DNA from: a candidate division NC10 bacterium CSP1-5
GTDB taxonomy: Bacteria; Methylomirabilota; Methylomirabilia; Methylomirabilales; CSP1-5
Assembly: GCA_001443495.1 (NCBI GenBank)
Contig: LDXR01000011.1
Coordinates: forward strand, 43,840 to 107,839
Direction: 5' to 3'
DNA: 64,000 nucleotides
Shown in pieces: positions 20,862-58,898 of this stretch; within the stretch, counting starts at the first letter, position 1, and each line of letters opens with the position of its first letter. Both the position numbers and the translations under genes were made by a program. Under the pieces are notes generated by a model. The model saw only the letters and a program-made list of their open reading frames with translations. It had not been told where the DNA came from and made no database searches.

Positions 20862-21046
20862 GTGACGGATTTCGGGACAAGCTGACGGTGTTGCTGAACG
20901 AGAACAGCATGGAGAATCGGTCGGACACGCCGGACTTCATCCTGGCGCAGTTTCTAATTAGCTGTCTGGACGCCTTTGATGAGGCGGTCTCCAGACGCAC
21001 GGAATGGTGGGGCAAGACTCCACCTGTAGGGAAGGGGGATGGATGA
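20858..21046 (+). CDS. Small hypothetical protein before terminase, 62 aa
   Basis: Begins MSDGFRDKLTVLLNENSMEN; the LAQFLISCLDAFDEAV segment is helical. ATGA overlaps on both sides tie it to the coiled-coil gene and terminase. Unrecognised; its constant place beside terminase suggests a packaging accessory. Confidence 0.65.
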   Translation: MSDGFRDKLTVLLNENSMENRSDTPDFILAQFLISCLDAFDEAVSRRTEWWGKTPPVGKGDG

Positions 21047-22902
21047 GGGCGGACGAGAGGGCGTTATCGAGGTGGATGAAGCGATTTGAGTCGCTGGCGG
21101 AGCCGTCAGACATGCGGGTATTGAAGGAGGCACGCGACGGTGACCTGAATGTGCTGACGAACTACTACATGCGCTTGCCAGGCGGGGGGACTCGCTGGCG
21201 GGCGGAAGGGGGTGAGACTGGCCATTACCGGTCTCTTTTTGAGTACGGTCAGTTGCACGAGATGTGGGTACAGGCGGGCCGGCCGGAGCAGGAGATGAAA
21301 CTGGAGGTCGAGGGGTTTGGCCTCATGCGTATTGAGACGCGCTGGACAGAGCTGGCTGAGCCAGACTTCTTGTATCCGCATGGGTATCTCTTTTTGCCGT
21401 GGGTGATACAGAATGGGTTGATCGATCCGAGTGTGGCGGTCGTGCTGGCCATCACGGGGACCGGGACGAGCAAGACGAGTGCGGTAGCCGTGGCGGGCCT
21501 GGGGTGCTGTGCGTTGTATCCGGGCTTCCGGTTCCTGAACGTGGCGCCCACCGAGAATCAGGCCGTATTGATGGTGGAAGAGTTGACAAAGTGGTGCACC
21601 GATACGCCCTTCACGAAATTTGTAGAGATGACTCGTGGGGGCGAGTTGTTTGTCTCAAAGCCACACCCGACCGTGGTGATTCGGAGTCCCTTTGGGCCGC
21701 AATATGAGAGCCGGTTTGTGTGTCAAACGATTGGGCGAGATGGCACAGCGCAGAACATTACCGGGAAGAATGTGGATTGGCTGAATGTGGACGAGGTGCA
21801 GTACCTCATGGGTATTGTGGCCGCTTTGGGAACACTCATGACCCGTTCGCGCGGACAACGGGCGAATGGTGAGGATATGTGGTCGAAACTGACCATGCTG
21901 ACGAACCCACCCGAAGACGGGATGTTGAATCCTGAGTTGGAAGTGCTCAAAGGACGCATCAGGACGCTGGCCGAGAAGAACGATCCTTTGGTGAAGGCAC
22001 GCTACGTGGAGGGGATTCACCGAGACGCGAACGTCTACATCACCGATCGGCAGAAGGCATTTCATGGGGCCTTGCTATCTGAGGCCGAGCAGAGGCGTTG
22101 GTTGGGTGGGGATACGAACTCCTCGAGCCTGAATCGGCTATTGCCAGAAGTGCTTTTCAATCGGTGCCACGATGAAGAGATGGATAAGGACTTACTGGCC
22201 GAGCGGATCCCGTCTGAGAGTCGAGGGGAAATGGGCGTCATCCGGTATCGAGTGCCGCCAATTGCGCGACATAGCTACATTGTGGTGGGCGATCCGGGAA
22301 AGTCGTATCCGGCCCAGCTGAGTGACCAGAATGTGCCGACCGTATTGGCGCTTGATTTGACGACCTTCATGGTGAAACCAATCCCGTTAGTCTATTTTGG
22401 GATGCTGGATGGGGATGGGACTTACGATCCGTGGCTGAGCGCGTTCAAGCAGTGCATGGATGATTACGCAGCCATGGGCTATTACGACGCGACCAATCTG
22501 GGACTGACCGGGTTCGAGGACAGTGGTGTTTTCGCTAGCTATCAGACTGTGCCGGTCACGTTTGCCGGTAACAACAAAGCCTGGGCTCGGTCTCTATTTA
22601 CGCTCTTGGCGCAAGATAGTCATTTTGCCTGGCCGAAGCTGACCGCTCTTTGGTATCAAGGCGGCGTTTACCGGGAAAAGGGGCCGGGGCACGATAAGTT
22701 GTCCGATGACGTGATTGCCTCTTTGTTTGTATACTGCTTGGCGGTCAGGTACGAAGGGACTCTTTGGAGTAGGGTGGTCGATAAGTTCAGGATCAACGAA
22801 GATCTGAAACCCATGCCGGCCAGTGATGACGAAGAGATGGTGAGGCTGCCGAGAAGCTCCTATCGAGGAGCACGAACACAGACCCGGAGGGATCGGCGAT
22901 GA
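21043..22902 (+). CDS. terL: Terminase large subunit
   Basis: This is the motor that packages DNA into the procapsid and cuts it. The ATPase half has Walker A ITGTGTSKTSA (about residue 150) and Walker B WLNVDEVQ (about 250). The nuclease half shows VVGDPGKS (about 413), YYDATN and a late DKLSDDVIASL, the three acidic sites of the RNase H-like domain. ATG 21043 overlaps the upstream stop; a longer frame from 21004 is a shadow. At 619 residues it is a normal length. The Walker A is the GxGxSKT variant. Confidence 0.93.
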   Translation: MRADERALSRWMKRFESLAEPSDMRVLKEARDGDLNVLTNYYMRLPGGGTRWRAEGGETGHYRSLFEYGQLHEMWVQAGRPEQEMKLEVEGFGLMRIETRWTELAEPDFLYPHGYLFLPWVIQNGLIDPSVAVVLAITGTGTSKTSAVAVAGLGCCALYPGFRFLNVAPTENQAVLMVEELTKWCTDTPFTKFVEMTRGGELFVSKPHPTVVIRSPFGPQYESRFVCQTIGRDGTAQNITGKNVDWLNVDEVQYLMGIVAALGTLMTRSRGQRANGEDMWSKLTMLTNPPEDGMLNPELEVLKGRIRTLAEKNDPLVKARYVEGIHRDANVYITDRQKAFHGALLSEAEQRRWLGGDTNSSSLNRLLPEVLFNRCHDEEMDKDLLAERIPSESRGEMGVIRYRVPPIARHSYIVVGDPGKSYPAQLSDQNVPTVLALDLTTFMVKPIPLVYFGMLDGDGTYDPWLSAFKQCMDDYAAMGYYDATNLGLTGFEDSGVFASYQTVPVTFAGNNKAWARSLFTLLAQDSHFAWPKLTALWYQGGVYREKGPGHDKLSDDVIASLFVYCLAVRYEGTLWSRVVDKFRINEDLKPMPASDDEEMVRLPRSSYRGARTQTRRDRR

Positions 22903-23424: not shown

Positions 23425-25041
23425 TTGGCACGCTTTGGCCTGGTCAAGAATCCAGACGAAGAACTCTACAATTCAGACGAGTGGGCTGCCCGGCGAACCG
23501 CCTACGCGGATTATCTGTCGTGGTTTCGCGGGGACTCCATTCGTGATCCTGAGTCTAGTATCTCCGATCCGGCGACCGGAGATCGCCCCAAGCTCTATCC
23601 CCTTGCCCTGAACCCGATCGGGAAAGTGTGTCGCGTCCACCGTGACGTACTGATCGGGATTCAGCCTCACAATGTCCTCTCAAACCCTGTCCAGATCGTC
23701 GTGAAACCGGGCGGTGATAGTAGCACCTCACGAGCTGAGGCGACCTCTATTCAGGACCTCTTACGCTCCACTTGGGATGACTCAGAAGCGACTGCGCTCA
23801 TTCAGAGGGTGGGCTTGATGACCCAGGTGTTCGGCGGGTATGGCCTGCAAGTCCTGTGGCAACCCCAAGATACTGAGTTAGCGACCCGCCTGCGTATCTT
23901 CCCGGTCACACCAGGAACGCTGCTACCCGTTTACGACAAGGGCCAATGGTGGAACCTGCGGGAGTGCTACATTGGCTATCTGATCTCATCTGTGGATGCC
24001 GCACGCTACGGGGTCAAGGTTGATGAGAATGAAGATGCCCTCTACATGGAGCACTGGACGCCGGACAGCTATGTCATTCGGGTGAACGGCAAAGTGGCCC
24101 AAGTTGAAGGATACGGTATCCTGGAAGGGCCACACCCATTCAAGAGAGTGCCCATCGTCTATATCCCCCACATTCGAGACGATGGATTCTGGGGCAATAG
24201 TCACATTCCCGACCTGGTAGGATTGACGCGAGAGAAGAATTTCAGATCGGCTGACAAAGGGGATGCCGTCCGGGAAGTCACCCATCCGATCATGACTGTT
24301 GCCAATGTTGAGAAGGGTCTGAAGATGCAGCCCGTTCTCGATGAGCATGGCCGGGAAGTATCGACTGCTCTCAATTTGGGCGTGAAGAGAGCAGCTCCCA
24401 ACTCAGGCGATCCCAAGGCCGACTTCCTGCGCTATCCCGAAGTGCCAGCCAGTCTTGCCAATTACGATGCTGAGCTTTGGAACGAGATCCGCCGGCAGGC
24501 CGACATTGCAGCCGTCGCTCTGGGTGACGATGATGTGTCGGGCGGCCGGATCACGGGCCCGGTGACGGCTTACCGGATGTGGCCGACGATGGCGCACACA
24601 CAAGCTGAGCGCATCGACTTCTCGACCGCCATGCGGCACTTAAATCGCATCATCTTGGCCGGCCTGATGGGCTATGGAAATGCATTGACCCAGGCCGGCG
24701 TTACTTTGCCAGTCAACCTCTCGGAAGACCATCTTCGCCTCAATCAACTATTGATCTGGAATCCTCAAATCCCCCTGGAAGTAAGCGAACGAGCCGACAT
24801 GCTCAATAACCGCCTCACGAAGGGCGGTATCAGTCTCCTGAGCTACCTGACCGAGATTGGCGTCCACGATCCCGAAGCAGAGCAGGACCGCATCCGGGCC
24901 GACATGGAATTTGAGAACGAGCTTGAGATCAAACGGGCTACGGCGATCGCGGAATCGAAGCCGGCTCCCTTCGGGGGTGGCCAGCCGTCCGGGAATGGGC
25001 AGAACGCGCCCGTACCTGTTCCTGCAGGAGTACCCAAATGA
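23425..25041 (+). CDS. Portal protein
   Basis: The portal is the twelve-subunit ring through which DNA enters and leaves the head. This 538-residue protein has the right size, place (after terminase) and character: helical arms, a mixed middle, and a disordered Pro/Gly-rich C-terminus. The frame opens at a TAG near 23,372 and the only usual start before the conserved part is TTG 23425, so translation probably begins there. Its stop overlaps the next gene by ATGA. Identification rests on context and general pattern such as PLALNPIGKVCRVHRDVLIG. Confidence 0.82.
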   Translation: MARFGLVKNPDEELYNSDEWAARRTAYADYLSWFRGDSIRDPESSISDPATGDRPKLYPLALNPIGKVCRVHRDVLIGIQPHNVLSNPVQIVVKPGGDSSTSRAEATSIQDLLRSTWDDSEATALIQRVGLMTQVFGGYGLQVLWQPQDTELATRLRIFPVTPGTLLPVYDKGQWWNLRECYIGYLISSVDAARYGVKVDENEDALYMEHWTPDSYVIRVNGKVAQVEGYGILEGPHPFKRVPIVYIPHIRDDGFWGNSHIPDLVGLTREKNFRSADKGDAVREVTHPIMTVANVEKGLKMQPVLDEHGREVSTALNLGVKRAAPNSGDPKADFLRYPEVPASLANYDAELWNEIRRQADIAAVALGDDDVSGGRITGPVTAYRMWPTMAHTQAERIDFSTAMRHLNRIILAGLMGYGNALTQAGVTLPVNLSEDHLRLNQLLIWNPQIPLEVSERADMLNNRLTKGGISLLSYLTEIGVHDPEAEQDRIRADMEFENELEIKRATAIAESKPAPFGGGQPSGNGQNAPVPVPAGVPK

Positions 25042-35847: not shown

Positions 35848-36324
35848 ATGGATCTCGCACTCTATCCGACCATCAGTGAGCCGATCAAATTGGCCGACAT
35901 CTCGCCAGCTTTCAAGTCCCTGGAAGACCAACAGTTGGACGGCCTTCCTGACGAGGAACGGGACGCCAAACGGGTGTGGGTCGTTGTCCGGCAGGCGACC
36001 GAAGAAGATCAGATCCGGAGAACGGATTTGCAGTCGAAACGAGAGGTACGATACACCGGGGCCGACGAAAGCGGATTGGCCGTGTCTGAAGTGATTGATG
36101 ATAACTGGCGTGAGCGGATCCAGCACGAAGCCTACTGGACTCTGCAAGACGTGGGCAACCTGGAACGCAACGGAAAGCCGGTCTTCCCCAAGATGCCGGC
36201 CAACATCATGAAGTGGGAGGAGTTCACCTCGATATGGGGCAAGCTCCACCCGTTGGTTGCCCAGACCATCCATCGGGCGGTTCGTCAGTTCAATCCAGAC
36301 TGGGACTGGCAGCAAGCAAAATGA
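35848..36324 (+). CDS. Tail assembly chaperone candidate 1, 158 aa
   Basis: Two small genes joined by overlap between tube and tape measure are the standard tail chaperone pair, which coats the tape measure during assembly. This first one is acidic and helical (MDLALYPTISEPIKLADISP). CAGGAGATACC precedes ATG 35848. Assigned by context. Confidence 0.7.
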   Translation: MDLALYPTISEPIKLADISPAFKSLEDQQLDGLPDEERDAKRVWVVVRQATEEDQIRRTDLQSKREVRYTGADESGLAVSEVIDDNWRERIQHEAYWTLQDVGNLERNGKPVFPKMPANIMKWEEFTSIWGKLHPLVAQTIHRAVRQFNPDWDWQQAK

Positions 36325-36683
36325 TGAGCGCCCACTATCGCCAGATTCAGGAGGCGGTAGCGGGTGCACTCAAGTACGAGTATTACCAAGCCGAACGCCT
36401 CAAGTTCGGCAACACCTTCTCCATGGTGCCTGAGTCAGCCCTCTTCCCGGAGGGAGTTCAGAAGATGCCAGAGGTCTACTGGCTCTATCGCAAGTGCCGA
36501 ACCTGGAACAGCCTGTGGTGGCCAGGTGGTGTTGCCTCACAGCCACACATCCTGATGAACGAGTTCGAGGCGTGCGCCTCGGGCGAGTCCGACTTCCGAG
36601 AGTGGATGGATCAAGTCCTGGAGCAGAAGTTCCAACAAGGGAACGGCAAGAATGATCTTCAAAACCTCTTCAACCGGACCTAG
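36321..36683 (+). CDS. Tail assembly chaperone candidate 2, 120 aa
   Basis: ATG 36321 overlaps the stop of the first chaperone-like gene. In many phages the second product is made by ribosomal frameshifting; here the overlap GCAAAATGATG lacks a classical X-XXY-YYZ slip site, so reinitiation is more likely. It is helical with many Tyr and Trp (EYYQAERLKFGNTF). Assigned by context. Confidence 0.62.
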   Translation: MMSAHYRQIQEAVAGALKYEYYQAERLKFGNTFSMVPESALFPEGVQKMPEVYWLYRKCRTWNSLWWPGGVASQPHILMNEFEACASGESDFREWMDQVLEQKFQQGNGKNDLQNLFNRT

Positions 36684-36685: not shown

Positions 36686-39600
36686 ATGCCTCCTCCTGAT
36701 CGTCCCGAAGTCAGACCGAGCGCGGCCGCTTATTCCGCTAAAGGCTGGCCCTACCTCTCCAGCGATCCCAAGCAGGGTTTCTGGTCATCTGAAGACATCA
36801 AGCACGGTGAAGAGTTCGATCAGTTTGTCTCAGACACACTGATCCCCTTCGTAAAAGCCCATCCTGAGACTCTTTCCGGGACGGGCGTTGCGCGTATCTC
36901 CACTCAGATCAAGGGGCTGACCGGCAGAGCTTACGATATTCCCTATAAGGGACGGCCTGACGTCGTGCTCTGGAACGGTGGCGATAAGATCATCAACGTC
37001 TCAGACGTTAAGGTCTCCACGCCCACCGAGAAGGTCCACTTCCAGCCTGAGAAATACACCGGCACCCCGAAGGAAGAGGGCTATTTTCTCCAGCCCCAAA
37101 TGTATGCCCACGCACTCCGAGAAAGCCTTGCCCCAGGAGCAAAGGCCAGCCTGTTCTTTGCTCCCAAGACCATTGCGACAGACATCATCGTCGCTTGGCA
37201 CGGCCTGAACGAAGAGAACCGGGTTGAGTACGCCCGCCAGATCATGAGGCGTATGACGGGTCAGAACGTCGAGGAAATCCCTCATCTTTCCTCGGAGCTA
37301 GTACCGGTTAAGAACATCACCTATTCTGAGCGGCCTGTGGCCGAGGCCAAAGAGTTTCAGCCCGGCGGCACTCTCTATACCCCCATCCGTGCCGCCTCTG
37401 ATGAGGCAGGTCTCATTGAGAAGTGGACTGGATTTCACCCCCATCGACTGAGTGAGTTCGAGAGAGGCACTGGCGAACCCGGCTCGCCTGTCATCCCGTT
37501 TGCTTGGCGGCGAGATATGCGGGCGCTGTACGAGATCGCCGGCATGCTGGCGAAGGGCGCCCGGAAGGGAGACTTCTCGGAAGAAGAGGCTATCAAAGAG
37601 CTTCAATCTCATATGCAAGAGATCGGGGTCAGTAGCTTTGATCCGACCCGTCTCCCGCAGAGGGCTGCCGAAAAGCCAACCGAGCCAGTTGCCGAAACAT
37701 CCCCTCTGGGCTTTGCACGTGTGGCCTACGGCCGCGTCAAAGAGATTCTGGGAGCCAAGTCCATTCTCACCCAGGGCGGCCGCTTCATTCTGCCCGACAT
37801 TGCCTCCGAGAAGGAAACGGGGGAGATGCCGGTCGTCCAGGAAGGGCGATTGGGTGAGTTCCGTGGCCAGCCGACGATCGATGATGTGCTTGTCACGCCC
37901 GTCCAGTTTGAAGCCGGCATGAGGCCCGTCCAGCCCGAGATCTTCTCGGAGTTGATGCACGTGTGGCGTAAATCCATTGGAGAGGGGATGACTCCCCGGG
38001 CGGCCATGCGTCTCGTGAACGAGAGACGCCGCAAGCTCATGGAAGGGATGCCCAGAGTCGGGCCTGTCTTTGGCGAGACGTCGACCGCGGCCGGAGAAGC
38101 CCTGAACCAGTTGGCTGTGAAGATCAACCAAGTAGGTCAGGAACGCGAGTCTGGCGACCCGATGACCGTCCAGAGATGGTACGAGAAGTCGGGCGGCCTG
38201 GTGGCACGTGGACGTGATCCAAGCTTGGGCTATGACATTGAGCAACTCAACAAGGCTCTTCCCGGCCATGTTTCTACGCCGGGAAGAATCAGAGCGGGTC
38301 TTCTGCTGGAGCAGATTGCCAAGATCCGCAAACGGGTGTCGATGGCTGCACGCCGGGACTACATGCTCTCGGCGGCCCCTGAAACGGGTCGGAACATCAT
38401 CTCCCCGTTCCGCATGGAAGGAGCTCCTCGTTCTGAGCGAGGCATCCACTTCAATGTGGGGTACACCCCGAACTTGCCAGAAGGCATGATGTTGATGGAC
38501 GCCGCAACCATGCGGCAGATGGATGCCCAGGGCGGCTTTGTCCTTCCCCACCAGGAAGACATCCCTCTTCCTTCGGGTGTGGACTTTACACCGGACGAGG
38601 AAGCCTATCGCCGGCAGACCGGTGGCTCAATCCCCCTGGGGCGGCTGGGGCACGCCCGGGAGATAGCGTTCAAGGCCAAGCAGTTCATGCAGTTTGCAGT
38701 CAATCGCGCCTTCCAGCATTATGAGAGTGGCGAGTCCATGCTGCGGGTGGAGGGCGTGGGGAAGGTTAGCGGTGAGCAGGAGTTGATCAAGTCCTGGCTC
38801 GGAAACAAAGCGGTTGGCATGGCCTACGAGGACTTGAATAAACGGGTTGAGGGGGGTGCCCTGAACATTGAAGCGCTGATGCCAGTTGCACAAGCGCCTC
38901 GTCAGGAACTTTTCTCGCTGGTGAGTGACTATTACGCTACCAAGAAACGCGGCTTTGAGCTGTTAACTAAAACGCTTCAGTCGATGGGTCTTGACCCTTA
39001 CAAAGAAGGATTGGTCGAGGACTATGATCCCGAAGAACGGGAGTGGGCCCGGAAGAGCAAGGCGGCCATCACCGGCAAACGCCTGATCTGGGGCGAAAAA
39101 CTAGACCCCTACATCATCCAAATCGGACGAGCCATTCAGCAGCAGATGGTGAAGCAGAACGTCCGCATGAGTATCCCGGTCAGCTACGAGGAGGCCGAAA
39201 CCTACGCCCGTGTTCATGGGCGGGAGTCGTTGGGCCAGATCGACTGGGATGACTGGCGGCAGAATCGGAACGAGCGTCGGGAAGTCACCTTCCAGGGGGC
39301 GATGCCGGTCGGCGGCCGCATGTTCCAGATGGAGAAACTCTGGACGGGCCGGGCTCAGGCCACGCTCGGTGAGTTGCAGGCCATGCCGCCTCGTATGGCC
39401 GAAAGGGCACTCCGGGAAGGAGGGCACCAGCGCCAGTATTACGAGAGTCTGCTGAAATCGGCTACTGCCTCACGGGACCCAACCACTCGCGAGGACATGA
39501 ATGTCGTCAGCCTAGCAGACCTCCGAGAAGAGATCGCCAAGCTACCATCTGAGCTCTCGTTTGTTGAGAAGATGGCTCAGGTTACGCCAGGCCGGTATGT

Positions 39601-42600
39601 TGACATTGGGGGCGGAGTGATCACTCCGCCATTGCCGCAGATGTCGATCATGAGCGTTCCGAGTGAAGTCACGGGAATGGTCAACCCCATTCCCGGCACC
39701 GAGAAGGACGTGTTCCCCCAAGAGGAACATAACGCGATCATCCACTATTACGAGACGCTCGTCAAAGCCCGGGCCGGCTCAAATGAAGAGGCGCGTGCCT
39801 TCGGCCAGGTACGTGATCGGATGAATCGACTGATGGGCACAAAGGCCGTGGCGAAAGGGTTGGTCTCCTCAGATGTGACAGGTCGCATGGGGACAGAAGG
39901 GACGTATGCCTTCATTCCCGGCGCCCGTCCTATGGAAGTCATCGTTGGTGAAAAAGCGTTGCGGGAACTGACCGGTATGCCTTCAGGGGATATGAGCCAG
40001 GAGGCACTGGATCGGTACGTTGAGACAGGTATGACCGCCTTGGGCCAGAGGCGACCAGACGTGCTACAAGGCGTAACGTCCATGCCGGGCTTCCGGATCG
40101 TGACGACCGCCGAGGCGGGCCGCTTGGGAATCCCCGTTCCTCGGAACTTCCAGGGGATGGCTTTCTCCCAGATGATCGCCAACCGCTTCCAAGGGGACGC
40201 AGATGGGGACCAGGTGGCTCTCTTCCTGGCCACCGTGTTCAAGATTGGCAAGTCCATCACCACGCCGGGCGAGGCCGCCAGGAGATCCACAGAGGAAGAG
40301 TTCCTGGAACGGCAGTTCCGGTTCCTGGAGCTGGTGACCGGTGAGCAGGTACACGGTCAGCGCACTTGGGAGAACTACTTGACGGTTGAGGATGATCTGG
40401 TCAGACGAACCGGCATGAAGGCATCCGAACTCGCCAAGTGGATGCAGAATGTCGGCAAGGCGCCCAAGACGGCCGATGAGTTCTTTGGTAGCCTGGAGCA
40501 GATGAACGCCTCGGTCACCACCAAGGACGCTCGTCAGGCATACCTCGTCGAGCAGATTGCCCAGAAGCAGCGGGGCGATGTGTTCAACCCGTTTGTAAGG
40601 AACCTGTCCATCGCGATGAAGTCGATGGGTATGAACACCCAGAGCGAACAGGATACTCTGGCGCGTACCTCCTATTTCGCCTATCAAGCTTCTCTGGACG
40701 AGCCGGTCTCGTCCGGCATGAGAACCCTGATGGGCATCATGAACTCCTATTCGTTGAGGACGGGCGGGGAAGACGACCCGACCAGCCGAGGTCGGGTACG
40801 CGGCAAGATTCGGGAAACCCTCGATCCCACAATGGGCAAGCCGCCCGAGCGAGAAGTTGACTTCCAGGCCCTCCCCAAGGAGATCATCCGGGCTGTCCTG
40901 GAAGCCGAGGAGTTCCGTGGCTTTGCCGACCCCACTAAAGAACAGCTCAACAAAGCCTGGCATCGGGACGTGGCAACCCTCCTTTCGTCCAATCCTGAGA
41001 CGAGAACAGGAATTGCCAAGAGGCTTGAGGGGGTCACCCGTGACGACGTGACCGAAGAGCTGGTCAACGACCTAATTCAGGGGATGGGCGGTGAGCAGGG
41101 CTTCTGGAAAGAGGCAGGCCCTCTGACAGCCGTGATTGGCACTCGTATCACCAACCGGGGTGTTCAGAGTAAAGCGCCCTGGCTGCGTGGCATCATGCGA
41201 GATGTCATCAACAATCCACAGTACACCAACTTCCAGCAGACCGCTAAGGGACGGCAGCCGACCGGTGGATTCGGCTTCTTCGAGCGCCTAGCAACCCCGA
41301 TGCTAGCCGCCCAACGTCTGGAAAGCGGCAATATCGCGCCTTGGGTGACAGGCGAAAAGTCTGAGGACGAGGAAGAGAGAGCTCGTGGACTATTGTCCGA
41401 CCTGGCTTCCGCTGGCCTGCTTCCGACTTACGTGACTGAGACAGTCTCCCGTGGCCTGGAAGCGTTCCGCCAGAAATCCTGGGAGGCGATGCAGCGTATC
41501 CGTCTGGGAGTGGGAGTTCCAAGCCTCGATGAGTATGACAATCCAGGTTCTTCTGGGAACCTAGCCAACATAAACGACGAAGAACGCGAGCTACTAGAGG
41601 CGCGGCGGAAGATAGCCAAGGAGGAACGGGATCGGCTGGACGCGGCCATGAAGGCTCGTGTGTCTGGTGAGTTGAGCCCTGAAGAACTAGCAGCTCGTTT
41701 CGATCCGACTGCCCCAGCGCCAACTCCTCGTGCCCAGGGAGGCGGTGGACGCAAGCCACCCAGTAGAAGACCGCCTGTGATGGCAATACCACCTGAGCCT
41801 GAGACACCACCCGAGCCGAGGCTCACGCCCCAGACACCAGGTGGGGTTACCCCTGGAGAATCGGCTCGCGCAGCCGGCATCTTCCAGGAAGGAAGCGGGA
41901 TTGAGACGGCTGAATTTGTTGCTCGTCGGCGAGCACAAGCAAAAGCCGAACGGGAAGCCTCGACGACGACCGGCTACAAAGAGCCGGGCCAGGTTCCAGC
42001 CGACATTGCCGCACAGTCGATGGGTGATTTCGTCAAGCTCCTCACCGAGGAAGGGGGAGATGTTGGGAGAGCCATCGGTCGGGTTCTTATGTACCAGGGA
42101 CGTCCAAAGAATCTTGGTTATAAGTACGGGGGTGAGCGCTTTCAGGAGCAGTTGTCGATCATCAGACAGCGCATCAAAGAGGGACAGACTTTCGGCCAGG
42201 CCATGGCAGAAACATTCCCGCCTGGCACAACTGAAGGAGGAGAAAGATACGAAGGCGGTGTACTTGAGCAGATGTTCCAAGGCAAGATGACTCCGGCCGC
42301 GGCCGAGACGTTCCGCCGTCTCGAATCGGGCCGGGTGACCGAGAAGTTCATTGCAGAACGATTCGCGGAAATGAAGACACTCGGTGGTGGGGCAGTGGGG
42401 CCCGAGTCGACCGCCGAGAACTTCCGGCAGATTGCGGCCGCCGCGATCCAACAGAAGGAGACGAACAAGTATCTCAAAGATTTCGGAGAGACCCTTCAAA
42501 CGGCACGCCGACACACTGAGGATTTCGGGGATGTCCTGAAGCGCATCCAGCAGGGTAGGGAGGCTCCTGCTGAACGGAAATGGGCACAGGAGATGATGGC

Positions 42601-45600
42601 CGCGGCCGGCCCGCAGGGGGACATACAGGCCGCACGCAGCCTGCGGGGCCTCTTCCAGGAATTGGGATTCACGCCTGAGCAGAGAAGAGCGGTTGGACAA
42701 CAAATCGTCCAACTCCGGGAAGCGGGCGCCGAGGATCAAGACCCGCTATCCAGGGCCGCTCTCCAACGATCGGCGCGCAGCGCCATGGGTCGTATCTTTG
42801 GTGAGGGCGATGTCAGTCAGATCGCCTTTGCCGCCTGGAACCTGCAACGTGCCTGGCGTATGACAGGCGGCCAGATTACAGGGCGCATGGACGATTACGC
42901 CAAGTTCCTAGGTGGCCAACAGCAGGACGTTGCTATGATGGGCGGACCCGCTGGCTTCTTTGGGCCAGCCGGAACCGTCAGACGTGGGCAGGTTGCGGCT
43001 CAAAGGTTTGGTCTGTCGGTCGGTCGGGCTGGATGGGACATCATGGGACCCGTCATGGAGGCCACCTCGGGCGTTCTTGGAATGGAAGATCCTGATCAGC
43101 CCTCACTGGGCTCTTACGCCCTGGCCGCTGGTGGCTTAGGACTGGGTAGTCTTTTTGCTCTGGCCGGTGGCGGTCGCCTTGCAAGTATGGCGGGTCTTGG
43201 TGTTTTGGGTCGGCCCATGACGGGCCTGGCCGAGAATATCGCAGGTGGGGTGGTGGGTCGTGCAGGCGGCTTGGCACGTGGTGTGCGTGGACTTGGTGAG
43301 ACAGCGGCCCTGAGAGGAATGTATGCCCTGGAAGGACGTGCCCTGGGGCGATTGGCGCTACGGGGGGCTGGTGTAGGGGGTGGCCTTGTGGGAGGTGCCC
43401 TTGGCATAGGACTGCTGGGCGGCGAGCTCTTGGGAGAGGCTGGAGCAAACATTGGAGAGGCACAAGGAGGCGAGACGGGCGCTTCCATAGGGCGAGTTGC
43501 TGGGACGGGAGCCGGCATCCTGGGCACCCGTGCTCTTCTCGGCGCTCGTCTTGCCGGTGGAGGCGCTATTACAGGGCCTCTGACAGGTGGGATTGCGCTC
43601 GGTGGCGCCATCTACGATGAGACGATTGGCCGGCAACAGGGGATAACCGCTGGTCAGATCGTCAACCAGCTTCTCGGTGGAATCGACACGGGTGCACGTC
43701 TCCTGGTGGCAAGTCTCTCACAAAGCGCAGATGTCTGGAAGGATGCACAACGCACGGGCGCGATGTGGGCAGAACGGGCCGAAGGGTCGAGCCGAGAAGG
43801 GTCCAAGGCCACTCAGGAAGCTGCCGAGCAGATGAAGAAATTTGCCGACTACTCCCGGTTCGGCAAAGAACTTGAAGCCCGCATGGAAGCGATCCGGCAG
43901 CCGATGGAAGCGGGCACAGGTGTCAAGGTGGGCGCCTTGCTGGCTCAGGCAACTGGGATGGACTTGCAGACGATGATGCGGCCTGAGTCCATCAAGGCGA
44001 TGCAGCAATTGATGCTCTTGCCGCCTGAGCTCCAACAGCAGCGCATGGGGCTCGGCGTGGGCATGGCAAGAGCGGCCGGCATGGAATGGGGCGGGGCCGG
44101 CTTTGCTGGAACAATTCAGCAGGCGATTTCGCTCACCCCACAACAGCAACTCAGGGCCCAGTTCAATCTCGGCCAGATCAGTCCTATCGGCGGCTTAGCG
44201 CAGCAGTATGGCGTCCAACTGCCAGCCCTGACACCCGACCTGATCACCAACCTGTCTCCTGAGCAGAGAACCATGCTCACCCGGGTTGGATCGCTCGACC
44301 CGGTTGCCATCAGCCGGGAAGCGACCCGCCTTCAGGGGATGCAGCCGCAGTTGCAGCAGGCCCAGTTTGCCCAGAACCTTCGAGCCGAAGCAACCCGGAT
44401 GCAGGACATGACACTGGCGCAGCAGAACATTACTCAGGAGGCAAGAGAGCAGAGAGATAGGGATCGCTCTCTCATGCAGCAAGGGGCGAGCTTCCTCTTC
44501 CCGGAAACAGCCATCCGGGCCGCAGCGGTCGGTGGGCAAAGAGGCATCTTCGGGGCCGGGCAAGCCATCGCTGCCCAAATGGGACAGGTACAGCAGGTCA
44601 TCCAGAGAGCCATCCCGACTACGCAACCAGACTTCCGATCACTGATTCAGGTTGAGCCGGAAACGCTTCAGAGGGCCGGGACGACGGATGTCTCCATGTT
44701 CGCCCCGTCCGATTGGGCAATGGGCCAACGGCTGTACGGCCGGACGACAGCCCCTATCGACACGGGCATGAATCTGGTTCAGGCGCAATCACAGGCACGC
44801 ATGGCCGACCGCGCCTATCAGCAGTTCCAGTACCAGCAACAGTTGGCGCAACTGGGGCGGCAACAGGTCTACCAGCTGGGCGGTCAGATCGGCGGCTACG
44901 ACTTCACAGGCGGCTTCAACATTGAGCAGGCGCAACTTGGGGAAGGCGCCCGGGCGCAGAGACGCCAATTCCAGTTGCAGGCCGGGACGATGAACTACGG
45001 CTGGCTGGGCCGGGGCGCCGATGCCTTCCAGGGGATGGGCGGTGAGTATGCTGACCTGGAACGCATGGGAGCCGCTGGCCTGGGCTATCGGCAGTTCTAC
45101 GAGAATTTGGAGCAGCAGAGGAGAGTATCCGGCATACAGCGGGGCCGCACCGAAGAGGACGTTCAACGGCAGTACCAGCGGCAGATGACTGGGTTGGGCT
45201 GGCAGGAGCAGGATCTGACGGTGAATTTCGAGCGCAGCATGACGCGCTTCACCCAGAGCTTGCAAGACCTGACGACCAACTTCCAACGTGGACAGACTCA
45301 ATTTGGATGGCAGCGTGAGAACCTGGCCTTCCAGGGGTCGCAGCAAGCTCTCTCCTTCGGCTGGCAGATGGAGGACATTGACACGGCCATGCGCTACGCC
45401 ACGGGCCGGGAAAGAAGGCAGTTGTCCCGACAGCGGGAACGCGGCGTCGTTGGATATGGGATGCAGGTTGAGCAGTTGGGCCGGGAAGGGGAACGCTTAG
45501 AAGAACGACAGCAGTGGGCCCAAGAAGATTTCAACCGGGAACGCAACCGGCTCGAAGAACGTCGGGGCTGGGCCGAAGAGGACTTCGGCAAAGAGAAGGA

Positions 45601-46147
45601 TCGTATCGACACACGCCGGGAATGGGCTGAAGAGGATCTGGCGCGTGCCTTGGAACGATTGCTTGAGCAGGGCAAGCTGGACGAAGAGCAGTTCGGCTTA
45701 CGCGCCAAGCAGTTTGAGGAAGACCAGAAGATGGCGAAACTTCGCCATGACGAATCGGTCAAGCACTTTAGCATCACCAATGGCCTGCAGGTCAAAGCCT
45801 TCGAGGACCGGAAGAAGCAGTTCGAGATTGAGAGTGCAGCCCAGGCCGTCTCGCTGATCAAGACCATGCTGCACACAGCGGAAGTCATTCGCCTTCAGGA
45901 TCAGATAGGCGTCCTGACCTCGGCCATGAGCTATCGGTTCGATCGTTTCTCAGAAGACATCAAGGACCCGAACGGGAAGCTGGCAAACTCACTGAACGCG
46001 ATCGTGCTAGACATCAGTGGGGCGCTGGGCAGCGCCCACCAGCCCTACTTCAAGGGACACGATACTGTTTTCCGTGCCTTCGAGCGATTGACTGAGGCGG
46101 TCGTCGCAAATGTAAATCGGGCTGTTCAGGAGTTGACGAGTGGCTAG
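36686..46147 (+). CDS. Giant tape measure fused to nuclease and RNA-polymerase-like domains
   Basis: At 3,153 residues this is the largest gene. Residues 30-190 are a RecB/Cas4-type PD-(D/E)XK nuclease: D92 (GRPDVV), D107-x-K109 (SDVKVS) and Q136-x-x-x-Y140. Around residue 1,171 the stretch NRFQGDADGDQVALF has the D-A-D-G-D metal motif and, with the preceding GRLGIPVPRNFQG, resembles the beta-prime active-site barrel. Residues about 2,110-2,340 are Gly-rich and hydrophobic, as in tape measures that enter the membrane. The C-terminus is a long Gln- and Glu-rich coiled coil. Tape measures set tail length and are ejected first, so the enzyme domains would enter the cell with the DNA. Place after the chaperones supports this. 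The polymerase reading is motif-based. Confidence 0.82.
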   Translation: MPPPDRPEVRPSAAAYSAKGWPYLSSDPKQGFWSSEDIKHGEEFDQFVSDTLIPFVKAHPETLSGTGVARISTQIKGLTGRAYDIPYKGRPDVVLWNGGDKIINVSDVKVSTPTEKVHFQPEKYTGTPKEEGYFLQPQMYAHALRESLAPGAKASLFFAPKTIATDIIVAWHGLNEENRVEYARQIMRRMTGQNVEEIPHLSSELVPVKNITYSERPVAEAKEFQPGGTLYTPIRAASDEAGLIEKWTGFHPHRLSEFERGTGEPGSPVIPFAWRRDMRALYEIAGMLAKGARKGDFSEEEAIKELQSHMQEIGVSSFDPTRLPQRAAEKPTEPVAETSPLGFARVAYGRVKEILGAKSILTQGGRFILPDIASEKETGEMPVVQEGRLGEFRGQPTIDDVLVTPVQFEAGMRPVQPEIFSELMHVWRKSIGEGMTPRAAMRLVNERRRKLMEGMPRVGPVFGETSTAAGEALNQLAVKINQVGQERESGDPMTVQRWYEKSGGLVARGRDPSLGYDIEQLNKALPGHVSTPGRIRAGLLLEQIAKIRKRVSMAARRDYMLSAAPETGRNIISPFRMEGAPRSERGIHFNVGYTPNLPEGMMLMDAATMRQMDAQGGFVLPHQEDIPLPSGVDFTPDEEAYRRQTGGSIPLGRLGHAREIAFKAKQFMQFAVNRAFQHYESGESMLRVEGVGKVSGEQELIKSWLGNKAVGMAYEDLNKRVEGGALNIEALMPVAQAPRQELFSLVSDYYATKKRGFELLTKTLQSMGLDPYKEGLVEDYDPEEREWARKSKAAITGKRLIWGEKLDPYIIQIGRAIQQQMVKQNVRMSIPVSYEEAETYARVHGRESLGQIDWDDWRQNRNERREVTFQGAMPVGGRMFQMEKLWTGRAQATLGELQAMPPRMAERALREGGHQRQYYESLLKSATASRDPTTREDMNVVSLADLREEIAKLPSELSFVEKMAQVTPGRYVDIGGGVITPPLPQMSIMSVPSEVTGMVNPIPGTEKDVFPQEEHNAIIHYYETLVKARAGSNEEARAFGQVRDRMNRLMGTKAVAKGLVSSDVTGRMGTEGTYAFIPGARPMEVIVGEKALRELTGMPSGDMSQEALDRYVETGMTALGQRRPDVLQGVTSMPGFRIVTTAEAGRLGIPVPRNFQGMAFSQMIANRFQGDADGDQVALFLATVFKIGKSITTPGEAARRSTEEEFLERQFRFLELVTGEQVHGQRTWENYLTVEDDLVRRTGMKASELAKWMQNVGKAPKTADEFFGSLEQMNASVTTKDARQAYLVEQIAQKQRGDVFNPFVRNLSIAMKSMGMNTQSEQDTLARTSYFAYQASLDEPVSSGMRTLMGIMNSYSLRTGGEDDPTSRGRVRGKIRETLDPTMGKPPEREVDFQALPKEIIRAVLEAEEFRGFADPTKEQLNKAWHRDVATLLSSNPETRTGIAKRLEGVTRDDVTEELVNDLIQGMGGEQGFWKEAGPLTAVIGTRITNRGVQSKAPWLRGIMRDVINNPQYTNFQQTAKGRQPTGGFGFFERLATPMLAAQRLESGNIAPWVTGEKSEDEEERARGLLSDLASAGLLPTYVTETVSRGLEAFRQKSWEAMQRIRLGVGVPSLDEYDNPGSSGNLANINDEERELLEARRKIAKEERDRLDAAMKARVSGELSPEELAARFDPTAPAPTPRAQGGGGRKPPSRRPPVMAIPPEPETPPEPRLTPQTPGGVTPGESARAAGIFQEGSGIETAEFVARRRAQAKAEREASTTTGYKEPGQVPADIAAQSMGDFVKLLTEEGGDVGRAIGRVLMYQGRPKNLGYKYGGERFQEQLSIIRQRIKEGQTFGQAMAETFPPGTTEGGERYEGGVLEQMFQGKMTPAAAETFRRLESGRVTEKFIAERFAEMKTLGGGAVGPESTAENFRQIAAAAIQQKETNKYLKDFGETLQTARRHTEDFGDVLKRIQQGREAPAERKWAQEMMAAAGPQGDIQAARSLRGLFQELGFTPEQRRAVGQQIVQLREAGAEDQDPLSRAALQRSARSAMGRIFGEGDVSQIAFAAWNLQRAWRMTGGQITGRMDDYAKFLGGQQQDVAMMGGPAGFFGPAGTVRRGQVAAQRFGLSVGRAGWDIMGPVMEATSGVLGMEDPDQPSLGSYALAAGGLGLGSLFALAGGGRLASMAGLGVLGRPMTGLAENIAGGVVGRAGGLARGVRGLGETAALRGMYALEGRALGRLALRGAGVGGGLVGGALGIGLLGGELLGEAGANIGEAQGGETGASIGRVAGTGAGILGTRALLGARLAGGGAITGPLTGGIALGGAIYDETIGRQQGITAGQIVNQLLGGIDTGARLLVASLSQSADVWKDAQRTGAMWAERAEGSSREGSKATQEAAEQMKKFADYSRFGKELEARMEAIRQPMEAGTGVKVGALLAQATGMDLQTMMRPESIKAMQQLMLLPPELQQQRMGLGVGMARAAGMEWGGAGFAGTIQQAISLTPQQQLRAQFNLGQISPIGGLAQQYGVQLPALTPDLITNLSPEQRTMLTRVGSLDPVAISREATRLQGMQPQLQQAQFAQNLRAEATRMQDMTLAQQNITQEAREQRDRDRSLMQQGASFLFPETAIRAAAVGGQRGIFGAGQAIAAQMGQVQQVIQRAIPTTQPDFRSLIQVEPETLQRAGTTDVSMFAPSDWAMGQRLYGRTTAPIDTGMNLVQAQSQARMADRAYQQFQYQQQLAQLGRQQVYQLGGQIGGYDFTGGFNIEQAQLGEGARAQRRQFQLQAGTMNYGWLGRGADAFQGMGGEYADLERMGAAGLGYRQFYENLEQQRRVSGIQRGRTEEDVQRQYQRQMTGLGWQEQDLTVNFERSMTRFTQSLQDLTTNFQRGQTQFGWQRENLAFQGSQQALSFGWQMEDIDTAMRYATGRERRQLSRQRERGVVGYGMQVEQLGREGERLEERQQWAQEDFNRERNRLEERRGWAEEDFGKEKDRIDTRREWAEEDLARALERLLEQGKLDEEQFGLRAKQFEEDQKMAKLRHDESVKHFSITNGLQVKAFEDRKKQFEIESAAQAVSLIKTMLHTAEVIRLQDQIGVLTSAMSYRFDRFSEDIKDPNGKLANSLNAIVLDISGALGSAHQPYFKGHDTVFRAFERLTEAVVANVNRAVQELTSG

Positions 46148-51366: not shown

Positions 51367-53858
51367 TGGCCTTCCCGGAAACTCCCATCCTGGATGATTT
51401 CAATCGGGCGAATGAGGGCCCACCACCGAGTTCCTCATGGGCTACACCAAGCGGAGCGCCTGGCATCAAGGTTATCTCCGGTCAAGTTGGAGAGGATGGA
51501 CCGGGCGGACAGGCAGTTTGGAACACTCAATATGGGCCCGATCTGGAGGCTTATGTTGATGTCCCCACACTGGCTTGGGATGGCATCGGTGGCCACACGG
51601 AGTATTTCCGTCTGTACTTCCGGGCCTCTGCTCCAGATGCAGGCACCACTTCAAGTGGCTACTTCATCCTTGCTTGGAACTCTAGTCCCAACGATAGCAT
51701 TGGTCTCTGGAGCTACACCCCCAGTGGTGTTGATTATCTCACTCACGTTCAAGTTGCGGGCCTGACTTCAGGTAGCTCTGTTGGACTATCTGTCATAGGA
51801 GATCTCATTAGGGTTTATCACAAGCCCCCAGCTGGGTCCTGGGCTGAAGTCTTCAACTACACAGATCCAACATACGACAACGCTGGCTATCTCCTTCTTT
51901 ACATCAGCCAAGGTGGACCCGATCTTCGTCTTGATAATTTTGGTGGAGGAACGCTAGGAGGTTCCCCGCCCACCATCACCACAACCAGCCTGGAAGATGG
52001 TATCGTTGAAACGGCCTACAGTCAGACCGTTCAAGCGACGGGCGGCGTCACACCCTACACCTGGTCCATCTCGGCGGGTACTCTTCCTGGCGGACTCAAC
52101 CTGAACTCATCCACAGGCGAAATTTCGGGAACACCCACGACCGGCCCTCGCATCTCCTATTTCACGGTTCGCTGCACAGCCACAGGCGGCCTCTACGATG
52201 ATCAGGCTCTTTCGATCACCATCTATGGCGATCTGATCGTCACGACGGACTCCCTGGGAGATGCTGAGCAGAACGAAGCCTACAGCCAAACATTAGCCTA
52301 TGCAGGCGGAAAGGAACCGATCTCTTGGAGTATCGTGGTAGGCTCTTTGCCCACTGGCCTAAACCTGACACAGGCAACAGGCGAGATCTCGGGCACACCC
52401 ACGGGCAGCCCAGGAACATCCAACTTCACGGTCCGCGCCACAGACTCCATGGACACGCCCCAGACGGACGACCAGGCCCTTTCGATCACGGTCGCCATAG
52501 GCTTGCCGGCAGTTCCCACGAATCTGAATGTCGAGATTCTATCGACTACCCGGCGTTTGACCTGGACAGATAACGCCAATAACGAAGTCGATTTTGCCAT
52601 CGAGAGACGAACGGCGGCCGGTGACTGGGAACTCTATGCAACGGTGAGTGCCAACGTCACCCAGTTCACAGATAGTGCCCTGGGAGGGCTGTATTGGTAT
52701 TATCGGGTGAAGGCACGCAATGCAGTCGGGTCATCGGCCTATTCCAACATTGGCCCTGTGCCACAAGCGCCCGTACTCATTACCGCGCTGGCGCACATCA
52801 CAGATTCCAATCGGATTGACTTGTACTGGCAGGACAACACCTTCAATGAGGACTACTTCCAGGTAGAACGCAGCACAGATGGAAACGACTTCAACTGGCT
52901 GAACACAGTCGATTCCAATGTGCGGACGTATCGAGATTTGACGTGCAACCCCAACACAACCTATTGGTATCGGGTATCTGCCTACGATCCCGTTTACGGG
53001 TTCTCGGACTACTCAAATGTCCTATCGGCCAAGACCGTCGCGGGCGGGGGTGACGGGGGCGGGGAGGGCGAGCCGCCTGGTGGGCAAGAGCCACCCTGGG
53101 AACCTACAGGTGGACCCAGCTACGTCGTGAACTGTCACCATATATCGGCAGAAGGGCTTGGCGCCCGTGGTATACGGGTGACTGGGGTAGCCTACCTCAT
53201 GCAGTCCCGGATGGTCGCAGACACAGACGGCATTGACCTGGAAGTCGACGAGGACTCTGAGGCCAGAGTCCTGGGATCCCAATTTAGTCGATATACAGGA
53301 TTGGGGCTTATCAACCCGATTCACGGAGATCGGTCGGCTTGGAACACCAGTGCTTATCCAGGAAGACACGCCAAGGACATCTCGGATGGGATACTAGTTC
53401 GACATCTGCCCACTGCCACAGTCACCGGACATGTACCTTCCTGGGATGGCACGAAATGGGTGCCGACTGATGTCGCTACACAGGACGAACTGGATGACCA
53501 CGAAGCGGCCGCGGATCCCCATCCCGGCTATATGACACCTGCAGAACATACAGCGATCGGAGACAGCAGCCCACATCATGCACCGGTGATACTGCATGGT
53601 GATTTAGAATCTTCACTGATGGCGCTCAACGGGCAGCAACTTGACCTTGACCTGCAGACTGCTAATCTTGTCCTGGCTGGCCCGTCCAGTGGCGGATCGG
53701 CCAAGCCCACCTTTCGATCATTGGTGGCTGCCGACATTCCTGGTGGGGCAGTGGGGGGCAAATACCGCCAATTTGTGTATACCGTCAGTGGTAACGACTT
53801 TCAATTCGTGAAGCTCGATGACGGAACGCCTATATTCGTTCTCATGGACTTGGAGTAA
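51366..53858 (+). CDS. Multi-domain tail fibre with Ig and FN3 modules
   Basis: ATG 51366 (MAFPETPILDDFNRANEG) begins a lectin-like domain of about 200 residues. Two putative Ig (He_PIG) domains follow, each with the signature P-Y-x-W-S-I ... LPxGLxLN ... GEISGTPT, then two fibronectin type III domains, a Gly/Pro hinge (GGGDGGGEGEPPGG) and a C-terminal domain typical of fibre trunks. It would bind cell-surface carbohydrate. A longer frame upstream is a shadow. Confidence 0.85.
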   Translation: MAFPETPILDDFNRANEGPPPSSSWATPSGAPGIKVISGQVGEDGPGGQAVWNTQYGPDLEAYVDVPTLAWDGIGGHTEYFRLYFRASAPDAGTTSSGYFILAWNSSPNDSIGLWSYTPSGVDYLTHVQVAGLTSGSSVGLSVIGDLIRVYHKPPAGSWAEVFNYTDPTYDNAGYLLLYISQGGPDLRLDNFGGGTLGGSPPTITTTSLEDGIVETAYSQTVQATGGVTPYTWSISAGTLPGGLNLNSSTGEISGTPTTGPRISYFTVRCTATGGLYDDQALSITIYGDLIVTTDSLGDAEQNEAYSQTLAYAGGKEPISWSIVVGSLPTGLNLTQATGEISGTPTGSPGTSNFTVRATDSMDTPQTDDQALSITVAIGLPAVPTNLNVEILSTTRRLTWTDNANNEVDFAIERRTAAGDWELYATVSANVTQFTDSALGGLYWYYRVKARNAVGSSAYSNIGPVPQAPVLITALAHITDSNRIDLYWQDNTFNEDYFQVERSTDGNDFNWLNTVDSNVRTYRDLTCNPNTTYWYRVSAYDPVYGFSDYSNVLSAKTVAGGGDGGGEGEPPGGQEPPWEPTGGPSYVVNCHHISAEGLGARGIRVTGVAYLMQSRMVADTDGIDLEVDEDSEARVLGSQFSRYTGLGLINPIHGDRSAWNTSAYPGRHAKDISDGILVRHLPTATVTGHVPSWDGTKWVPTDVATQDELDDHEAAADPHPGYMTPAEHTAIGDSSPHHAPVILHGDLESSLMALNGQQLDLDLQTANLVLAGPSSGGSAKPTFRSLVAADIPGGAVGGKYRQFVYTVSGNDFQFVKLDDGTPIFVLMDLE

Positions 53859-53860
53859 CT

Positions 53861-55015
53861 ATGCCCACCTCAGCCAACCTGGAAGATCTCATCTTGCGTG
53901 ATACGGCGGCGAACCGGCCTGCGGCAGGCACGCCAGGGCGGATTTTCTACGATACGACAAACGAGAAATGGCAGCGCGATACCGGCTCTTCCTGGGAGGA
54001 CTGCGAGCCGGCACCCGGCTCATTCTCATTGGCCGACGTAAAAGACTCCGTGCGGGCCGCGACGACAGCTAACATCACACTGTCCGGTGAGCAGACAATT
54101 GATGGTGTTTCCGTGGTAGCCGTGGATCGGGTGCTGGTCAAAGATCAAAGCGCAGGCGCAGAGAATGGTATCTATGTGGCTGCGTCTGGAGCATGGAGTC
54201 GGGCGATCGATGCCAATACCAGCGCCGAAGTTACGCCTGGAATGTTTGTGTTCGTCGAGGAAGGCACAGTCAATGGTGATCAGGGCTTCGTCCTGACGAC
54301 TAATGCGCCTATCACATTGGGTACAACGGCTCTCTCATTCACACAATTTTCGGGCGGTGGAGGCTCGGATACAACCGCCATCCATGACGACGCGGCCGGT
54401 GAGATCGCCGCGATTACCGAGAAGGCATCTCCCGTTTCAGGAGACTTGTTACTCATTGAGGACAGCGCCGCCTCAAACGCCAAGAAACGAGTGCAGATCG
54501 GTAACCTTCCCGGAGGTACAGACGCAGCAGCCATTCACGATGACACTGCGGGCGAGATTGCCGCGATCACCGAGAAGACAACACCGGTTGCGGCGGATCT
54601 GTTCCTCATTGAAGATAGCGCCGCCTCAAACGCGAAAAAGCGAGTGCAAATCGGTAACCTACCGAAACTCAACTCGCAACTCCTGTCTTCAATCGAAGGA
54701 GTGCTTGTCGTCACAACCGGGAAGTTGCGCTTCTACAACGAGACGGGGCGAACGCTGACTATCAGCAAGGTCAAGTTGGCCGTAGATACAGCTCCTGTGG
54801 GGGCTGCAATCATCGTGGACGTTCATAAGAACGGAGTGACTGTTTTCACGACTCAATCGAACCGGCCGCAGATTGCTGCGGCTGCGAATGAGGGTGAGAG
54901 CACGACCATCGAGGTACCTTCCTGGGCAGATGGAGACTACCTGACGGTGGATGTCGATCAAATCGGCTCGAGCACGGCAGGCTCAGACCTGACTGTGCAT
55001 GTTATCTATAGCTAG
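53861..55015 (+). CDS. Tail fibre with tandem duplication, 384 aa
   Basis: Starts two bases after the previous stop. The N-terminus has a common phage fibre motif (ANRPAAGTPGRIFYDTTNE) and a second known block (VLVKDQSAGAENGIYVA). Residues about 170-265 contain two near-identical units of about 48 residues (AIHDD-AGEIAAITEK ... KKRVQIGNLP), a recent duplication also visible in DNA. The C-terminus is a beta domain that may bind the receptor. Confidence 0.82.
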   Translation: MPTSANLEDLILRDTAANRPAAGTPGRIFYDTTNEKWQRDTGSSWEDCEPAPGSFSLADVKDSVRAATTANITLSGEQTIDGVSVVAVDRVLVKDQSAGAENGIYVAASGAWSRAIDANTSAEVTPGMFVFVEEGTVNGDQGFVLTTNAPITLGTTALSFTQFSGGGGSDTTAIHDDAAGEIAAITEKASPVSGDLLLIEDSAASNAKKRVQIGNLPGGTDAAAIHDDTAGEIAAITEKTTPVAADLFLIEDSAASNAKKRVQIGNLPKLNSQLLSSIEGVLVVTTGKLRFYNETGRTLTISKVKLAVDTAPVGAAIIVDVHKNGVTVFTTQSNRPQIAAAANEGESTTIEVPSWADGDYLTVDVDQIGSSTAGSDLTVHVIYS

Positions 55016-55025
55016 GAGGCTTGTC

Positions 55026-56012: not shown

Positions 56013-56013
56013 C

Positions 56014-56220: not shown

Positions 56221-56239
56221 AACGGGAAGACAGGAAGAG

Positions 56240-58220: not shown

Positions 58221-58327
58221 TCCTTATACTATCAACGGCTAAGCAAGCATCAAACATAAAAAGGATTTCGTTCAAAACTCTCGTCCGCCTGGGTGACGGT
58301 TTCGCCCTACCCCCATGGAGATCTGTC

Positions 58328-58886: not shown

Positions 58887-58898
58887 AACAGACCGAAC

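Follow-up and report, generated by a model that had tools for sequence, protein, structure and literature searches.

A predicted phage tape measure protein with nuclease-like and RNA polymerase-like signatures in its N-terminal part

The giant gene

The window analysed here is a stretch of 64,000 nucleotides (nt), the right part of a 107,839-bp phage contig (G000:C11:43840-107839; C11 below), and its tail module contains an open reading frame (ORF) for a protein of 3,153 aa that an earlier note, made from the letters alone, had proposed to be a tape measure carrying both a RecB/Cas4-type nuclease and an RNA polymerase-like active site. The ORF and its ATG start are confirmed, as are the positions of the motifs (G89-R-P-D92, D107-V-K109, Q136-P-Q-M-Y140 and D1171-A-D-G-D1175). 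We argue that this giant protein is very likely a tape measure, and that its two enzymatic signatures are probably genuine. The features are collected in Table 1.

The tape measure assignment is well supported, both by gene position and by homology at the C-terminal end. The giant ORF is the longest gene of the tail module; before it come, in this order, the genes for the terminase large subunit (TerL) and the portal protein, an adaptor-like gene (below cut-off) and two overlapping ORFs that resemble tail chaperones by position only, and after it come the distal tail genes, with tail-fibre-like genes further downstream. An overlapping pair of ORFs just before the tape measure gene is the usual position of tail chaperones. 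Using blastp with the low-complexity filter off, residues 2829-3150 can be aligned to residues 2309-2664 of a 2,673-aa protein (length from stop to stop) that occupies the same position in a distantly related phage, IMGVR_UViG_3300037307_000611 (25% identity over 379 columns, 77.8 bits, E 2e-17), and 200 shuffles of residues 2101-3153 gave at most 30.8 bits. Since a phmmer comparison of the two whole proteins reported no match, the homology is visible in the repetitive, charged C-terminal tail only. The C-terminal helical part would be the one that sets tail length. Residues 2701-3000 are Gln-rich, charged and free of proline, and the hydrophobic stretches that had been announced for this protein are indeed found, in the form of a Gly-rich hydrophobic region (residues 2101-2250) where the Kyte-Doolittle mean over 21 residues peaks above 1.3 at residues 2140-2161, 2223-2244 and 2228-2250.

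Table 1. Features discussed in the text (window positions, except for family B, which is given by locus; domain boundaries marked ~ are approximate)
Feature	Position	Strand	Basis or detail
Candidate non-virion two-barrel RNA polymerase P0010, 800 aa	14923..17325	-	GGDCDGD, residues 394-400
D-C-D-G-D motif of P0010	16126..16140	-	
Terminase large subunit (TerL)	21004..22902	+	phrog_2, E 5e-8
Portal protein	23425..25041	+	phrog_64, E 4e-12
ORF in tail assembly chaperone position, first of overlapping pair	35848..36324	+	position only
Second ORF of chaperone-like pair	36321..36683	+	ATG overlaps stop of first ORF (ATGA)
Predicted tape measure protein, 3,153 aa, N-terminal enzymatic cargo	36686..46147	+	ATG start; C-terminal homology
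Predicted PD-(D/E)XK nuclease domain, residues ~30-190	36773..37255	+	signature motifs
Nuclease catalytic signature, residues 89-140	36950..37105	+	G89-x-x-D92, D107-x-K109, Q136-x-x-x-Y140
Predicted two-barrel RNA polymerase core, residues ~903-1405	39392..40900	+	upstream flank aligns to family B
R-R-P motif, residues 1122-1124	40049..40057	+	
D-A-D-G-D motif, residues 1171-1175	40196..40210	+	within GDADGDQ
Gly-rich hydrophobic region, residues 2101-2250	42986..43435	+	Kyte-Doolittle
C-terminal predicted helical tape segment, residues 2829-3150	45170..46135	+	conserved in related phage
Family B loci	L142:10705-17628; L138:4687-11553; L140, L141, L139; L154		

RNA polymerase signature

The D.DGD motif alone is weak evidence for a polymerase (about 3%), because it turns up in 57 of 2,000 shuffles of the giant protein. 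Jointly with the upstream R-x-P motif, it becomes rare (3 of 2,000 shuffles). In a set of 491 real ORFs, selected so that known polymerases were included, this joint signature gave 12 matches, nine in known or candidate polymerases (the giant protein included) and three in unrelated proteins. The letters RRPD are the same four as in gp64 of the Thermus phage P23-45. The distance between R-x-P and DxDGD is 38 residues in P23-45 gp96 and its TSP4 and stolb1 homologues, in gp64, and in the three tabulated members of a plasmid-borne family called family B here; it is 36 in L045, 37 in L065 and 43 in YonO, giving a range of 36-43 for the ten other proven or candidate two-barrel polymerase sequences where R-x-P was found (phi14:2 gp66, which has no D.DGD, was left out of this comparison).

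In the viral contigs scanned, the heptapeptide GDADGDQ occurs in at least 120 stretches, and [EQ]GD[AS]DGDQ in 36 (a complete count). Two other families of giant viral ORFs share the [EQ]GDADGDQ context, namely phrog_30979 with its distant relative L045, and family B; it is not shared by the many other ORFs with a match, which are short or unrelated and in some cases long (such as L012 and L083). L065:7519-12621 (phrog_30979, function unknown) and L045:7333-11898 both carry R-x-P and GDADGDQ, and to judge by these motifs they look like two-barrel RNA polymerases themselves. Family B consists of proteins of about 2,300 aa (e.g. WP_162645788.1) in seven Bacillus and Paenibacillus plasmid records of 200-229 kb, where they lie in the tail module, next to genes for a tail chaperonin and a glucosaminidase protein, and are called hypothetical where annotated; they are possibly an undescribed family of tail-module RNA polymerases. 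Like the giant protein, they combine D[AS]DGD (with R-Y-P at -38), a tail module and an N-terminal nuclease-like stretch; unlike it, they are preceded by a separate 1,978-aa protein, and their N-terminal stretch resembles a DEDD 3'-5' exonuclease rather than PD-(D/E)XK. This resemblance was seen by eye (FDIE ... NFD ... H..D). Of the two members scanned, one has hits below cut-off to RNase_H_2 (E 0.0017) and DNA_pol_B_exo2 (E 0.0036), and the second has one to RNase_H_2 (E 0.07), likewise below cut-off; a DEDD expression of our own matched none of three members. It may represent a parallel pairing of a nuclease with a polymerase.

Family B, a candidate and not a proven polymerase family, is also the one to which the region upstream of the motif can be aligned. 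In an alignment anchored at the motif and extending over 260 residues upstream, against a profile of four members, the score of the giant protein with loose gap costs was reached by 2 of 600 segments drawn at random from 22 real proteins and by 4 of 600 shuffles, about as for the proven polymerase gp96 (1 of 600 and 3 of 600). As a further element, a second D.DGD protein, P0010, is encoded on the minus strand, followed by TerL, portal and tape measure genes on the plus strand, a layout that mirrors gp64 and gp96 in P23-45. The score of the P0010 upstream flank with the L045/L065 profile was reached by 3 of 400 shuffles; this flank gave no signal with the gp96 family, gp64 or YonO and has no R-x-P within 110 residues upstream of the motif, and the protein has no Pfam match above cut-off and no PHROGs, PDB or phage match. 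We regard P0010 as a candidate RNA polymerase.

The closest parallel is P23-45 gp96, an RNA polymerase fused to a tape measure and proven by experiment; its authors presented it in 2024 as a link between transcription and the tape measure that had not been suspected before (PMC10770324). Matches to gp96 are also present in P74-26, G20c, TSP4 and stolb1-3. In both cases a giant tape measure bears the polymerase signature in its N-terminal part, with an opposite-strand D.DGD protein and TerL, portal and tape measure on the plus strand, and the membrane domains that the same paper reports for gp96 have a counterpart in the hydrophobic region of the giant protein. They differ in size and motif (5,002 aa with DFDGD at 779, against 3,153 aa with DADGD at 1171), in the metallopeptidase domain reported for gp96 (PMC10770324), the giant protein having no HExxH, and in the nuclease, as the N-terminal 1,330-1,401 residues of the three gp96 proteins examined contain no PD-(D/E)XK signature.

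Several observations weigh against a polymerase. The R-x-P spacing of 49 residues exceeds those of the ten other sequences by 6-13. The family B signal fades with stricter gap costs: 18 of 600 decoys and 18 of 600 shuffles reached the score of the giant protein with the middle setting (30 and 35 of 600 for gp96), and 22 of 200 shuffles with the strictest one, where gp96 had no score at all. Four other polymerase profiles, used with a shorter flank (120 residues) and one gap setting, and so in a test of different design, gave no signal for the upstream flank (gp96 family 92, gp64 168, L045/L065 183 and YonO 64 of 400 shuffles), while gp96 in the same test was distinguished from shuffles by gp64 (3 of 400), L045/L065 (2 of 400) and YonO (13 of 400). 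The downstream flank gave no signal either (93, 200 and 37 of 200). In hmmsearch with the motif fixed, 38 of 999, 72 of 1,000 and 37 of 495 scored shuffles reached the score of the giant protein with three profiles, a test that lacks power, since on the whole gp96 and the further proven or candidate polymerases score no better. Ends-free alignment, a poor design, showed no clear signal for any of five sequences, and hhalign of the single sequence against family B gave a probability of 0.4%, which is not meaningful.

Database searches were equally uninformative. Pfam and NCBIfam returned nothing above cut-off (chance-level best E 0.07 for the whole protein, 0.16 and 0.17 for residues 1001-1300), PHROGs no match and PDB no meaningful sequence match; residues 1-1500 and 1050-1250 had no protein relatives among the candidates scored from 5.8 billion proteins. 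The N-terminal 1,400-1,605 residues found no relatives in phages or genome contigs, only themselves in viral contigs, and nothing in 59 related genomes or 94 genomes of the class besides their own. An AlphaFold model of residues 1078-1205 (mean pLDDT 37.5) is too poor to show whether two double-psi beta barrels are present, and a fold search with it gave no match at E <= 0.001.

The case for a polymerase is thus made by the signature with its spacing, by the architecture and by one flank test, and not by general homology, as only one of five profiles gave a flank signal. Many polymerase families, according to the P23-45 authors, have no significant similarity beyond the DxDxD region (PMC10770324). 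The RNA polymerase-like active site of the earlier note stands as a signature and by analogy with P23-45, but profile, model and fold search did not confirm it. One could then imagine a tape measure whose sole enzymatic part is the PD-(D/E)XK nuclease-like domain, in which GDADGDQ binds metal or arose by chance and no polymerase exists. We think that this is unlikely: the frequency of D.DGD alone, the silence of four of the five profiles and an R-x-P lying outside 36-43 would fit it, but it leaves unexplained the rarity of the joint signature and an upstream flank whose fit to family B is about that of gp96, in an architecture for which P23-45 provides a proven polymerase.

Nuclease signature

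The three elements of a RecB/Cas4-type signature, GxxD, DxK and QxxxY, are present in the right order and spacing within the first 140 residues. The regular expression used was written after the motif had been seen, following the known features of the family. It matched 4 of 5,000 shuffles of residues 1-300 and 4 of 1,000 of the whole protein, and all 30 PDDEXK_1 loci taken as controls, which are not independent since they are the best-scoring ones in related genomes and many are close copies. In 3,458 background ORFs (895,470 residues) it found four matches: the giant protein, one stretch of phi14:2 gp66 twice, and one other. The gp66 match lies near the C-terminus of that protein (L159, residues 2063-2120); it may be due to chance or have a connection with the PDDEXK domain that has been reported for transcription proteins of crAss-like phages.

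Here also the other methods are silent, which speaks against the assignment. Residues 1-250 had no Pfam match at E <= 10 (PF12705 included), no PDB sequence match at E <= 10, and a single NCBIfam match with a chance-level E of 0.15. Because no profile matches, we say of this domain that it would work like PD-(D/E)XK enzymes and do not file it in PF12705. The AlphaFold model of residues 20-225 has a mean pLDDT of 35.7, too poor to judge the fold, and yielded no fold match at E <= 0.001; its order of elements (helix-strand-strand-helix-strand-strand-helix) is compatible with the PD-(D/E)XK fold and is not evidence for it. The RecB/Cas4-type nuclease of the earlier note therefore holds at the level of the signature, while profile, model and fold search bring no confirmation.

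A tape measure that has a two-barrel RNA polymerase but no nuclease, and whose N-terminal signature is fortuitous or belongs to a decayed, non-cutting nucleic-acid-binding fold, would agree with these empty searches, with an expression composed post hoc and with its other matches in background ORFs. We find this improbable given a full signature, ordered and spaced as it should be, which so few shuffles reproduce.

The crAss-like phages had been suggested as a precedent for the virion polymerase, where P23-45 gp96, a polymerase fused to a tape measure, is the nearer one. They are also a precedent for the PD-(D/E)XK part, as some of them are reported to have a large transcription protein with a PDDEXK domain (PMC7886860; PMC10136315). 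The transcription-block proteins of Crassvirales (phi14:2 gp66 and relatives) are, as is predicted for the giant protein, giant single-chain two-barrel virion polymerases; they differ in that they are capsid cargo of short-tailed phages, and the available text of the review does not use the words tape measure (PMC10136315). Furthermore, phi14:2 gp66 has DFDID in place of D.DGD.

A related phage

Relatives were sought with a degenerate DNA pattern from the TerL alignment (a hand-made GDPGKxNP; 29 matched stretches). When the TerL profile was run against six-frame ORFs of at least 80 aa from loci L012-L221, it matched only our own TerL and one in L220 (E 8.5e-28), whereas the search with conserved TerL peptides returned only the phage itself in viral contigs and nothing in genome contigs. 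L220, which is IMGVR_UViG_3300037307_000611, is a contig of 33,252 bp with TerL, portal (SPP1_portal, E 2e-14) and capsid (PF13252, E 8e-8) genes followed by the 2,673-aa ORF introduced above. This protein shares with the giant protein the homologous C-terminal tape, in a phage with a related TerL, and differs from it in having neither DxDxD nor a PD-(D/E)XK signature; it has HEVGH at residue 933, which we take to be a zinc-peptidase-type motif. No Pfam family was found in the 2,210 residues scanned, so HEVGH is a motif only. A pattern search for the tape C-terminus found it in these two phages only.

As the related protein lacks both signatures, the N-terminal cargo looks exchangeable, and a swap between related phages is the best reading of this comparison. 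That neither enzyme exists, and that we are dealing with a large tape measure with lineage-specific domains and coincidental motifs, might be concluded from this relative and from the absence of any informative database or fold match, but the presence in a single protein of two distinct signatures that shuffles seldom reproduce, and a P23-45-like layout with a second D.DGD protein, make it very improbable.

The phage genome and its other genes

C11 belongs to a genome bin of 2.77 Mb and 40 contigs. Its ends carry an exact direct repeat of 11,867 bp (C11 1-11867 and 95973-107839, the right-hand copy being window 52134-64000), from which it follows that the phage genome, of 95,972 bp, is circularly closed or terminally redundant. 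A prophage of the bin's host is not favoured, since the contig closes on itself through this repeat. IMG/VR contains a near-identical, permuted copy of 95,304 bp (IMGVR_UViG_3300025164_000635), without a short stretch near C11 12860-12943 and with residues 1-1400 of the giant protein 100% identical; possibly derived from the same sample, it is not counted as independent.

In 50,697 phage records, phi14:2 included, tblastn found nothing that matched TerL at E <= 0.01, so that TerL relatedness does not place the phage in Crassvirales. Besides itself, seven proteins with 39-50% identity (P0003-P0009) were found among 7,997 candidates scored from 5.8 billion proteins; their contigs measure 3.6-23 kb. 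By its sequence, this is a deeply divergent tailed phage. Two of the metagenomic TerL relatives, P0005 and P0006, are longer (785 and 1,031 aa) and contain the additional Pfam domains PF14890, PF07591 and PF01079, presumably of intein/Hint types.

Elsewhere in the window, the ORF at 26012-27673, which matches coiled-coil profiles, contains two direct repeats of about 265 bp that are 77% identical (26452-26715 and 26746-27009). A large minus-strand ORF at 2-3076 continues leftward to C11 42806 (1,373 aa from stop to stop) and combines a DUF6094 methyltransferase part (E 2e-19) with a SNF2-helicase-like part below cut-off. Positions 18435-19200, upstream of three minus-strand genes, hold a repeated leader with paired hairpin-like sequences, in which GGGACTAGAGCCC is present in three copies, on the minus strand only, directly before a purine-rich stretch resembling a ribosome-binding site; the hairpins and GGGACTAGAGCCC are possible regulatory or processing elements. 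A search for early promoters found no convincing repeated AT-rich or GC-rich motif.

Discussion

We think that the tape measure, the PD-(D/E)XK nuclease and the two-barrel RNA polymerase are all real parts of one protein of a long-tailed phage, and we give this a probability of about 0.62; the overall interpretation of the earlier note is in this sense partly supported. Since a predicted tail ruler carries both signatures, the protein would likely deliver a nuclease and a polymerase into the bacterium. It would be ejected ahead of the genome, its hydrophobic part perhaps helping to form a channel through the envelope, and early transcription would start as the DNA enters. In siphophage rulers the N-terminal end is head-proximal in the tail. 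The N-terminal end with its two enzymes would then leave last, just before the DNA. As in the model put forward for P23-45, the tape polymerase may transcribe the first genes, that of the second polymerase among them. The nuclease might cut nucleic acid of the host or of its defences close to where the DNA enters, the least certain of these steps.

The fusion of a polymerase to a tape measure is already known (P23-45, 2024); the added PD-(D/E)XK signature is the unusual and new part. The combination had been called unusual, and this is true of the triple association but not of each pair, as P23-45 and the PDDEXK domains of crAss-like phages provide precedents. In the open-licence literature searched, with few papers seen beyond listing level, we found none that combines a tape measure, a polymerase and PD-(D/E)XK.

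A bolder reading, which we offer tentatively and hold to be possible rather than probable, is that the N-terminus is a swappable delivery bay, loaded on the ruler of one lineage with a metalloprotease-like domain in some phages and with a nuclease and an RNA polymerase in others, and that the pairing of nuclease and polymerase arose more than once, from nuclease folds that are unrelated (PD-(D/E)XK here and a DEDD-like one in the Bacillus phage-plasmids). If so, long-tailed phages would repeatedly inject a cutter and a transcriber together, ahead of the genome.

If the three-part protein is real, a second phage, with no detectable sequence similarity to P23-45 in the tests run, would follow the same plan with a nuclease added, and the arrangement would be general. 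It would also offer a defined protein with which to ask how folded enzymes get through the narrow tube of a tail and whether transcription of the genome already takes place during entry, the related phage, with the same ruler C-terminus and a different N-terminus, being a natural comparison.

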